Positions 32,277 through 36,100 of a stretch of 64,000 nt of DNA are shown in pieces. The stretch covers positions 74,764 through 138,763 of the forward strand of contig JABHZQ010000020.1 of assembly GCA_018656555.1 (NCBI GenBank), given 5' to 3'. Origin of the DNA: an archaeon (GTDB lineage: Archaea; Nanobdellota; Nanobdellia; SCGC-AAA011-G17; GW2011-AR17). The notes beneath the pieces are model-generated. The model was given only the letters and a program-made list of their open reading frames with translations. It was not told where the DNA came from and did not search any database. Made by a program: the position numbers and the translations under genes. Positions within the stretch are counted from its first letter, which is position 1; every line of letters begins with the position of its first letter.

Positions 32277-33362
32277 ATGCAGCAATTAAATGTTTTAGCA
32301 AATGTTTCTGATTCTTGTCCATTATCATGTAGTTATTGTTATGCTGGAGAAAAATCAGGAGAGGTTATGTCTGATGAGGTTTTAGCTAGAATGGTGGAGT
32401 TAATTCAAGGGAGAGAGAATGTTGGTTCTACTACTTATATTTGGCATGGGGCTGAACCTTTGGCTGTTGGTAAGAGATTTTTTGAAAGTGTTAGAAGAGA
32501 ACAGAGTAGATTTGATCATAGAGTAAGGAATGGGATGCAGTCTAGTGGTGTTTTGTTGACACCTAGTTTTGCAGATGTTTTGGTTGCTAATGAGATTAAT
32601 CTGGGACTTAGTTTAGATGGACCTAATGAATTACATAATCAAATGAGGCCGTTTAGAACTGGAGGAGGTTCTTTTGATCAGGTTATGAGATCAATAGATT
32701 TAATGAGAGAAAGAGGGAAGAAGCCAGGTGTTATTGCAGTTTTGACTAAAATGTCTTTGCCTTATTTGGATGATATGTATGATTTTTTTAAGAGTACTGG
32801 ATTGAATTTTAAAATTAGTCCAATTTTGGATTGTGGTTTTGCAGAAGATAAAGGAACAGATTTACAATTAACTTTAGATGAGAGAGTTCAAGCTATTACT
32901 CATCTTTTTGATAGGTGGTTTTTTGATGAACAAGATGGACATATAATTGATTATGAAAATATGAGAACTTTAACAAGGGCTATTTTTACAAAGGGTGGAG
33001 GTTCTTGTGATATGATGCATAATTGTCAGGATGCATTTATTTCAGTTGAAGTTAATGGAGATGTATATCCTTGTTCAAGGTTTGGTGATTTTTCTTATGG
33101 GAATATATTTGATGTGGATAGTTTTGAAGATATTTTAGCATACCCATTAAGACAACAAGTTTTAGGTAGGTTTGATGGTATTCCTGAGTGTGTTGCATGT
33201 GAATATAACTTTTTATGTTATTCTGGTTGTATGCATAACGCTTATTTAGTTGGTGATATTATGGATAAGGATCCTAATTGTGATGCAAATAGGAGAATTT
33301 ATGATCATATCTCAGAAAGAGTTTTAGCGGAGTTGGAGAGAGATGGTGCAATAGGAGGTTAA
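32277..33362 (+). CDS. Radical SAM/SPASM peptide maturase-like protein (anSME/FxsB-like)
   Basis: CPLSCSYCYAG (CX3CX2C), TTYIWHGAEPLAVG, C-terminal SPASM Cys set CDMMHNC..YPCSRFGDFSYGNI..CVACEYNFLCYSGCMHNAY..DPNC. Confidence 0.85.
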   Translation: MQQLNVLANVSDSCPLSCSYCYAGEKSGEVMSDEVLARMVELIQGRENVGSTTYIWHGAEPLAVGKRFFESVRREQSRFDHRVRNGMQSSGVLLTPSFADVLVANEINLGLSLDGPNELHNQMRPFRTGGGSFDQVMRSIDLMRERGKKPGVIAVLTKMSLPYLDDMYDFFKSTGLNFKISPILDCGFAEDKGTDLQLTLDERVQAITHLFDRWFFDEQDGHIIDYENMRTLTRAIFTKGGGSCDMMHNCQDAFISVEVNGDVYPCSRFGDFSYGNIFDVDSFEDILAYPLRQQVLGRFDGIPECVACEYNFLCYSGCMHNAYLVGDIMDKDPNCDANRRIYDHISERVLAELERDGAIGG

Positions 33363-33363
33363 A

Positions 33364-33648
33364 ATGGGTAAAGCTTTTCAAAGATTATGTGAATTAACTG
33401 CAGATGCTGTTGATACTACAAGAGTAAAGAATCATCGTTTAAGAAGAATTTTTGCTGAAGTTATTGGTGAAGAAGGAGATGGATTTATTTTTTGGAAAAG
33501 GAGAAGGATGTATACAGAACATAGTCGGCAGTATATGGATGATGATTTAAATCATATGGAAACTTATGATATAGCAGATCATGATCAACATAGTCGGTAT
33601 ACTGAACATTCAGAATATAATGATGGACATTTAGATTTTTATGATTAA
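33364..33648 (+). CDS. Short protein with repetitive His/Tyr/Asp-rich tail; candidate rSAM peptide substrate
   Basis: Starts 1 nt after the rSAM stop with RBS ataggaggt; tail MYTEHSRQYMDDDLNHMETYDIADHDQHSRYTEHSEYNDGHLDFYD repeats YTEHS and HSR. Confidence 0.7.
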   Translation: MGKAFQRLCELTADAVDTTRVKNHRLRRIFAEVIGEEGDGFIFWKRRRMYTEHSRQYMDDDLNHMETYDIADHDQHSRYTEHSEYNDGHLDFYD

Positions 33649-34484
33649 GAAGCTTTAGGTTTTTTTATTTTTTTAGCTAATTTTTTAGTTTTAGTAATTG
33701 TCATCTTTGTTGCATATCTTGTTAACATAATGATAAAAGTAATTTCAAAGGTAGTTGGTGCTACTAAGTAGATTCCAAATAAAGTTATCTTTAATTTGTT
33801 TTCATTAGGGTTAGCTACAACTTCTTTTACTTTTGTAATAACATAGTCGACATCTTGTTGTATAAATTCATGAAATTCTGATTTTTTTATTTTATTTAAT
33901 AGAATTAAAAGGTGTTTTCCTCTTTTTTGTACAAGTTTTGTATTTCCTATTGCATTTGCAAGCTCTCTTATTTCTCTATTAGCAAGAGCCATTGCTTCGT
34001 ATGCTTCTAGAAAACCATTTTTTCTCTTTGTAAGATCTTTTGGAAATGCTGTTTTTTCTATTAATTTTTTGAAATCATTATTGATCTTTATTTCTTCATC
34101 ATAGTATGATTTGAATAATTTTAATTGTTGTTCAAAGAAGTTTGTATCTCTGTATAAAATTGATTCTATTTTGTATGCAATCATGTTGAAATGATTAATT
34201 TTTGATATTGTTTTATTTTCTCTATGAAGAGTTTTTCTCATTTTTTTGAGGTTTTCTCGTAATGGGCTGATACAAGTATTATTTATCTGTTCAGGGAAGA
34301 GTTTTCCTAGTTTTTTTACTTCTTCTTGTAACCTAAAGTTTAGTAGAAGTTCTTTACTGATTATTCCTCTGATTTCATTAATTGTATTATAGTTATCTCG
34401 ATAAGAAATTGTTTGTATTTGTTGAATTAGTCTATACTTTTTATCTGCATAAAATAATCTTTTAAGTAGTAGGGTTTCAAGCAT
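33645..34484 (-). CDS. Helical hypothetical protein with C-terminal TM
   Basis: Long Lys/Leu/Glu-rich helices, hydrophobic ITLFGIYLVAPTTFEITFIIMLTRYA. Confidence 0.5.
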   Translation of the reverse strand: MLETLLLKRLFYADKKYRLIQQIQTISYRDNYNTINEIRGIISKELLLNFRLQEEVKKLGKLFPEQINNTCISPLRENLKKMRKTLHRENKTISKINHFNMIAYKIESILYRDTNFFEQQLKLFKSYYDEEIKINNDFKKLIEKTAFPKDLTKRKNGFLEAYEAMALANREIRELANAIGNTKLVQKRGKHLLILLNKIKKSEFHEFIQQDVDYVITKVKEVVANPNENKLKITLFGIYLVAPTTFEITFIIMLTRYATKMTITKTKKLAKKIKKPKAS

Positions 34485-34819: not shown

Positions 34820-36100
34820 TTATTTTTTGACTAAGTCAATACACCTTCCAGCCGCAACTGTTTGACCAGCATCCCTGATAGCAAAACTTGATAGCTGAGG
34901 GATTTCTGATTGTTTTTCGATAACCAATGGTTTTGTTGGTTTCAATTTAACAATAGCTGCGTCTCCATTTTTGATGAAGTCTGGATTTTCTTCCATAGTT
35001 TCTCCAGTAGCTGGGTTTAATTTTTTCTCAATTGCCATGAATTGACAAGCTACTTGAGCTGTGTGGATGTGGAATACTGGTGTGTACCCTGATGTTACAA
35101 CAGTTGGATGGTTCAAAACAACAATTTGTGCTGTGAACTCTGTTGCTATAGTCGGGGGATTATCTGTATGTCCAAGAACATCTCCTTTTGCGATGTCCTT
35201 TTTACCAATTCCTCTTACAGAGAAACCACAGTTGTCTCCAGGTTCAGCTGTTTTAATTTGCTCATGATGCATTTCTATGGTTTTAACTTCACCAATTGCA
35301 CCAGTTCCTTCTCTAGCTGGTACTACAATAACTTTGTCTCCAATCTTCATCACACCAGATTCAACTCTTCCTACAGGAACTACACCAATACCTGTGATGT
35401 TATATACATCCTGGATAGGTAGTCTTAATGGTAGGTTTGTTGGTTTTTCTGGCTGTTCGAACTTATCTAATTGTTCTAAGATTGTTGGACCTTTGTACCA
35501 ATCCATATTTTCGGATTTCTTAGCAACATTGTCTCCTTTCAAAGCACTAATTGGGATGAAAGGTGTATTTGCTGGAGCGTATCCAACTTGTTGCAATAAT
35601 TTTGAAACTTCATCTTTAACAGCGTTGTATTTAGCTTCATCATAGTTAACTGCATCCATTTTGTTTACAGCTACTGCAATTTGCTTAACATTCATTGTTC
35701 TACACAAGAATACATGCTCTTTTGTTTGTTCCATAATACCTTCTGTACCAGCAACAACTAGAACTGCAATATCTGCTTGTGAAGCACCTGTGATCATATT
35801 TTTGATAAAGTCTTTGTGTCCAGGTGCGTCAATGATTGTGTATTCAAATTTATTTGTTAAAAGTTTTTTATGCATTAAATCAATGGTAACCCCTCTTTCT
35901 CTTTCTTCTTTAAGGTTATCCATAACGAATGCGAATTCGAATCCAGCTTTTCCTAATTCAGCTGCTTTTTCTTTTAATTTTCTCATTGTTTGTTCATCAA
36001 TTACACCTGAGTCATAGAACAGTCTACCTACTGTAGTTGATTTACCGTGATCAACGTGTCCTACGAATACAATATTAACATGTGGTTTTTCTTTTGCCAT
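34820..36100 (-). CDS. tuf: Translation elongation factor EF-1 alpha
   Basis: [53 protein letters not shown]. Confidence 0.98.

Follow-up and report, generated by a model that had tools for sequence, protein, structure and literature searches.

A SPASM radical SAM enzyme and its aromatic- and acid-patterned peptide in archaea: an inferred two-gene system for three-residue peptide cross-links

What is made by a SPASM radical SAM enzyme that is encoded, in an archaeal genome of 1.08 Mb (97.7% complete), directly before a short peptide with a strange, repetitive tail? The question arises from the window, by which is meant the whole stretch of 64,000 nucleotides analysed here, and from a sequence-only reading of it, which had proposed an undescribed archaeal peptide modification system. 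The two genes on which that proposal was built are both present on the plus strand. The first (32277-33362) encodes a 361-aa SPASM radical SAM peptide maturase, as judged from its open reading frame, from Pfam and NCBIfam and from an AF2 model, and the second (33364-33648) encodes a 94-aa precursor peptide, which rests on its open reading frame and on a leader HMM built without it. The peptide starts 1 nt past the TAA stop of the enzyme, and its Shine-Dalgarno sequence, GGAGGT (33354-33359, plus strand), falls within the final enzyme codons, from which translational coupling of the peptide is inferred. The contig itself is archaeal to judge from its neighbouring genes: a gene which, from reading its sequence, we take to encode EF-1 alpha (34820-36100) lies 1.2 kb from the pair, and is followed by what, on the same grounds, are presumably genes for archease-like and RtcB-like proteins. 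A 279-aa protein encoded on the minus strand at 33645-34484 converges on the peptide gene, and matches no Pfam or NCBIfam family above cut-off. Elsewhere in this genome, on contig C3, there are further radical SAM enzymes, and in the stretches taken for them no aromatic-acid peptide is found.

Pfam recognises both a Radical_SAM domain (4e-16) and a SPASM domain (1e-5) in the enzyme, and the earlier observation of a CPLSCSYC motif accompanied by a full SPASM-like cysteine set is confirmed. The three cysteines of this CX3CX2C cluster motif (enzyme residues 14-21; 32316-32339, plus strand) are invariant in 13 homologues, as are the eight of the SPASM region (33006-33281, plus strand), namely Cys 244, 250, 266, 305, 308, 314, 318 and 335, for which two auxiliary FeS clusters are predicted by alignment with anSMEcpe. 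The occurrence of GAEP in place of GGEP, to which attention had been drawn, is real and is common to the window enzyme and its closest relative, L012, the other family members having GGEP, but it is a minor feature.

Membership of a known non-peptide family would have refuted the assignment as a peptide maturase, and the enzyme falls in none. The top NCBIfam model is that of DynA (NF041298), at 4e-73 and 246.3 bits against a cut-off of 450, which is not met; the same model matches all 13 family enzymes, at best with 1e-98. TIGR04083 gives 159 bits against 300 and the GrrM/OscB model 125 bits against 310; indeed, across the catalogued models of cyclophane maturases (GrrM, YhhB, FxsB, AmcB and HxsB) the window enzyme reaches 71-125 bits and leaves cut-offs of 310-445 unmet. 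The AF2 model (pLDDT 86.5, pTM 0.86) opens straight into the barrel and no RRE domain is present in the enzyme. The closest solved folds are those of anSMEcpe, with a TM of about 0.86, and of ChlB, solved with its leader (9gm3), with a TM of about 0.82, the latter being the nearest peptide-maturase structure; the epimerase EpeE appears among the fold matches at lower rank.

The search for homologous enzyme-peptide pairs, which had been suggested as a check, returns 13 loci once it is extended across archaea more widely and to 85,462 species genomes. Eleven are archaeal (the window, L005, L012, L013, L015, L016, L032, L033, L034, L035 and L053), their records naming Woesearchaeota, Pacearchaeota, Aenigmatarchaeota or just an archaeon, and two are bacterial (L036 from a Verrucomicrobia bin and L037 from a Kiritimatiellae bin). 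Within the window's order the enzyme has matches at 1e-20 in only 4 of 103 genomes, among which L005 has a matching peptide just upstream of the enzyme. In a sample of 378 genomes the family enzymes match at 5e-143 or lower, the next enzymes following at 4e-82. A peptide adjoins the enzyme at all 13 loci, directly downstream of it at 12 and upstream in L005, with two peptides each at L013 and L035, and the junctions range from a 14-nt overlap to a 20-nt gap. In a quick maximum-likelihood tree the 13 family enzymes group against the other rows with a support of 88 (98 with labelled groups only), one row outside the family, L078, having been entered in the wrong frame. The enzymes of L036 and L037 nest with that of the archaeal L035 (support 98), and a transfer between the two domains is thereby suggested; the L036 contig is only 3.9 kb long, such that its bin could be wrong. 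Hence the initial proposal of an undescribed archaeal peptide modification system is supported by the pairs, and by the leader and the triplet spacing set out below, but with its Verrucomicrobia and Kiritimatiellae members the system is not strictly archaeal. Phage records contain only distant relatives of the enzyme, with identities below 31%. No protease or exporter common to the family is seen in the flanks listed, selected flanking proteins have no informative Pfam match, and the peptides themselves fall under no family in NCBIfam or Pfam. In the open-access literature there is no report that joins Woesearchaeota, RiPPs and radical SAM enzymes; subscription journals are largely uncovered by this and priority is not established.

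From an alignment of 14 precursors, the leader of the window peptide comprises residues 1-48 (33364-33507, plus strand), and the spacing statistics assign residues 49-94 (33508-33645, plus strand) to a core that is free of Cys. It had been anticipated that the leader would be conserved and the tail variable, and this is what the 14 aligned peptides display. Their common leader motif is [IV]xN[PHR]x[LIV][RK], in which the Asn is invariant and after which most peptides have F-x-F; in the window peptide the corresponding stretches are VKNHRLRR (33424-33447, plus strand) and GFIFW, also within the leader. A leader HMM made without the window peptide places that peptide top of the 815 window ORFs (E = 3.5e-8) and, when the closest relative is omitted too, still gives it an E of 1.4e-4, the next best ORF being at 0.22 or worse. 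Leave-one-out HMMs miss only one of the 15 leaders, that of L015, and find the other 14 at E <= 0.0012.

Over the 378 genomes the leader profile reaches E <= 1e-11 in eight, all of which bear the enzyme, and the ninth enzyme genome of the sample is that of the L015 variant. As the profile contains the leaders of these eight, their recovery is partly built in; what the scan does tell is that no further genome has a match of this strength without an enzyme. Peptide homologues lacking the enzyme, which would have refuted the pairing, are therefore not seen at this threshold in the sample, and a chance pairing of enzyme and peptide is ruled out. Weak matches (E 7e-4 to 0.05), inspected in part, are unrelated proteins or implausible frames. 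In L005 the peptide reads through naturally and in frame into the enzyme, and an AF2 model of this read-through, with its TGA modelled as Trp, has the leader as a hairpin and a helix (pLDDT 78-90) and the core disordered (pLDDT 35-59).

The tail of the window peptide is as strange as first described, with its YTEHS and HSR repeats, although these exact repeats are specific to it and the family-wide unit is instead [Y/H]-x-[D/E]. Eight aromatic-x-D/E triplets are found in the window core (YTE, YMD, HME, YTE, HSE, YND, HLD and FYD), along with two HSR sites, which would match the His-Arg type of YhhB. What had been offered as a loose likeness to aromatic-x-polar triplets proves to be statistically real: in the window tail D/E stands at +2 from 8 of 14 aromatics against 3.5 expected (p about 0.002) and, when aromatic (Y, H, F, W) to D/E pairs are counted at each spacing in the pooled cores and compared with within-peptide shuffles, the i,i+2 spacing holds 115 pairs against 43.5 expected (z = 14.7). 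The other spacings are depleted (i+1, z = -2.0; i+3, z = -5.2; i+4, z = -2.8), with the exception of spacing 5, which is raised (z = 4.9), as is expected from neighbouring triplets given that the aromatic-aromatic spacing of 3 is raised also (z = 6.7).

The pooled cores amount to 665 residues, of which D makes up 15.6%, H 11.7%, Y 11.3%, E 10.1% and Cys 1.4%. Not every aromatic fits the i,i+2 rule: D/E is found at +2 from 63 of the 78 His and from 44 of the 75 Tyr, the middle residue of the triplet being enriched in Thr (3.4-fold) and Ser (2.2-fold). Considered one by one, 11 of the 14 peptides show the enrichment at p < 0.01; those that do not reach significance are L012 (0.052), L035b (0.21) and L036 (0.22), the core of the last containing several Y-x-K sites. 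Core length runs from 19 to 78 aa across the family, with varying order, with Tyr dominant in several cores (L005, L036) and with arrays of 4-14 triplets. Because the core boundaries were set by the analyst, at the FxF motif or its equivalent, and because the peptides are akin to one another, the value of z should not be read as an exact probability; how the spacings contrast with one another is unaffected by either. The aromatic-to-acid i,i+2 rule has the geometry of three-residue cyclophanes (triceptides).

From the recurrence of the pair in distant archaea and a few bacteria, the inferred product is very probably a cross-linked peptide, of a sort as yet uncatalogued in such organisms. The reading that we consider probable is that the pair is a minimal, two-gene and RRE-less RiPP system which installs several i-to-i+2 cross-links. 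No chemistry has been observed, and both the tail as the substrate and the i-to-i+2 cross-linked product are inferred. That the links are of the cyclophane type is likewise an inference, drawn from the i,i+2 rule, the Cys-free window core, the full-cluster SPASM enzyme and the ChlB-like fold. In such a system, the translationally coupled peptide would be bound via its N-terminal leader, with its hairpin, NPxLRR helix and FxF motif, and the absence of an RRE implies that the radical SAM/SPASM enzyme might itself recognise the leader, for which there are no docking data. The enzyme would then move along the disordered core, joining each His or Tyr side chain to C-beta of the Asp/Glu at i+2 at a cost of 2 H per ring, and the putative outcome is a string of three-residue cyclophane-type rings.

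It is also conceivable that the same pair makes DynA-like C-N links, from the His imidazole N to C-beta at i+2, at the HxD/E sites, Tyr being linked differently or left unmodified. In this regard, DynA is the best NCBIfam model for the enzyme and matches every family member, the i+2 rule is kept better by His than by Tyr, and the dynobactin His-Tyr link has i+2 spacing (PMC11002830); yet the DynA cut-off is missed by the window enzyme, and the cores of L005 and L036 are dominated by Tyr, which cannot form such a ring N link, and this alternative appears unlikely. The strict aromatic-acid spacing of two, with spacings of 1, 3 and 4 depleted, fits a pairwise link and not single-residue chemistry, and it thereby makes quite improbable a tail that is modified without cross-links, by hydroxylation, epimerisation or Asp/Glu decarboxylation, notwithstanding the varied chemistry of SPASM radical SAM enzymes and the presence of EpeE among the lower-rank fold matches.

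A further possibility is that the enzyme matures anaerobic sulfatases or some other protein and that the His/Asp-rich peptide is an unrelated metal-binding protein, as its tail composition would allow. The sulfatase maturase model TIGR03942 does match at 3e-49, and anSMEcpe shares the full SPASM Cys set as well as being the closest fold. The match, however, stops at 168 bits where the cut-off asks for 349 and where true anSMEs of the set reach 365 and 415; a sulfatase gene (PF00884) is absent from the genome; and the Asp after the YPC Cys of anSMEcpe, D277, which is the proposed base of that enzyme, is Ser in the window enzyme and Gly/Pro in most relatives. A sulfatase maturase is thus contradicted by profile score, genome content and the missing Asp and, with the adjoining peptide conserved alongside the enzyme across distant lineages, the whole of this reading is highly improbable. 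A sactipeptide or ranthipeptide maturase making Cys thioethers, to which only weak matches of the PapB and SCIFF maturase models point, is scarcely credible given the rarity of Cys in the pooled cores, and for the window peptide is contradicted by its Cys-free core.

Returning to the i-to-i+2 cross-linking system, its likeness to the triceptide enzymes (YxdB, HaaB, YhhB, GrrM/OscB, XyeB, FxsB) lies in a SPASM radical SAM enzyme whose neighbour is a short peptide of leader and core, and in an aromatic at i with its acceptor at i+2, Tyr-x-Asp and His motifs included (PMC11002830). Among the known cases, YxdB acts on Tyr, whose C3 it joins to Asp C-beta, HaaB and YhhB act on His, whose C2 they join to the C-beta of an Ala or Arg at i+2, and the dynobactin maturase forms a His-Tyr C-N link (PMC11002830). 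Unlike triceptides, the window family is mainly archaeal, has two genes and its own leader motif, meets no NCBIfam cut-off, and mixes His/Tyr donors with Asp/Glu acceptors, its arrays running to as many as 14 triplets. The examples given in the review PMC11002830 include no three-residue rings of the His-to-Asp/Glu or Tyr-to-Glu kind, and no described precedent for His-to-Glu or Tyr-to-Glu rings was found. In other words, the system would work like a triceptide system, but formal membership, for which a C(sp2)-C-beta bond between residues i and i+2 is required, is not established, since the bond type is undetermined and no catalogued cut-off is met.

ChlB (Ruel et al. 2025, cited in PMC12636437) is a multiple cyclophane synthase that resembles the window enzyme in fold and puts several cyclophanes on one peptide; it differs in an identity of about 20% and in a fused HEXXH hydroxylase domain that is absent from the window system. 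DynA (DynE in the review PMC11002830) is similarly a compact enzyme, one of whose links is i,i+2, whereas the two rings of dynobactin are discrete (W to N at i+3, and His-Tyr) and make up no acid-acceptor array.

Several loci around the family merit description in their own right. At L015:953-1471 (minus strand) the family leader motif is fused to CFI-box-CTERM (50.5 bits, cut-off 40) beside a family enzyme; with this domain in place of a triplet array, the enzyme may accept other substrates, and the fusion is a possible clue to the purpose of CFI-box-CTERM. After the two peptides of the L013 locus, L121:5655-6326 encodes a 223-aa protein with a cysteine-peptidase-like RCGSTCIRIAHEHFG stretch and no Pfam or NCBIfam match, which is possibly a leader protease. 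In another archaeon of the same class (L023, genome G372), a 63-aa peptide, whose gene precedes a radical SAM gene by about 500 bases, ends in SSEWSDGWDDWSDGGWNDQWANWDDGV, a Trp-x-Asp version of the aromatic-x-acid tail. Four Bacteroidales bins (L038, L040, L041 and L044) have related enzymes with short peptides about 0.2-1.1 kb upstream, which carry a different leader, are enriched in aromatic-x-D/E and in several cases end in variants of YNDCHGDYYD. Short peptides rich in YxE/YxD/HxD, with leaders unlike that of the window family, also lie by related radical SAM genes at L081:2850-4107 (IMG/VR 3300037044_000078) and near 3760 in L064 (a Ruminococcus bin).

Among the viral records, L082:1040-5249 and L083:584-5249 (IMG/VR 3300006674_000647 and _000765) encode a 408-aa protein that has a C-terminal tandem repeat like YSDHTNTGYSAYSNHTNTGY and is covered by neither a PHROG nor an NCBIfam family. 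Directly after its gene come three for radical SAM enzymes, of which two are related to DynA and sulfatase maturases; this looks like virus-encoded modification of the repeat protein. In L080:5-5970 (IMG/VR 3300014613_000187), a DynA-like radical SAM gene lies between those of a tail tape-measure protein and of a 634-aa protein without a PHROG match.

As for the family as a whole, a fuller picture can be put forward only tentatively, our confidence in it falling a little short of even: that of RiPPs made by DPANN archaea and a few bacteria, with a single enzyme building a long ladder of three-residue rings from mixed His and Tyr donors and Asp/Glu acceptors, His-to-Glu and Tyr-to-Glu rings among them, to give a rigid, poly-anionic peptide. 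Such a ladder may serve in metal binding, or may act on hosts or competitors; a role in host interaction, in warfare or in metal binding is equally conceivable without data for any of them. The compactness of the system, with one enzyme, one peptide, a clear element for recognition and 4-14 repeated sites in the substrate, suits it to tests of processivity and of His/Tyr ring chemistry with acidic acceptors. The genomes of DPANN archaea are very small, and many of these archaea are believed to rely on hosts. The keeping of a dedicated peptide-modifying system within 1.08 Mb of DNA implies a costly product, which is probably outward-facing.
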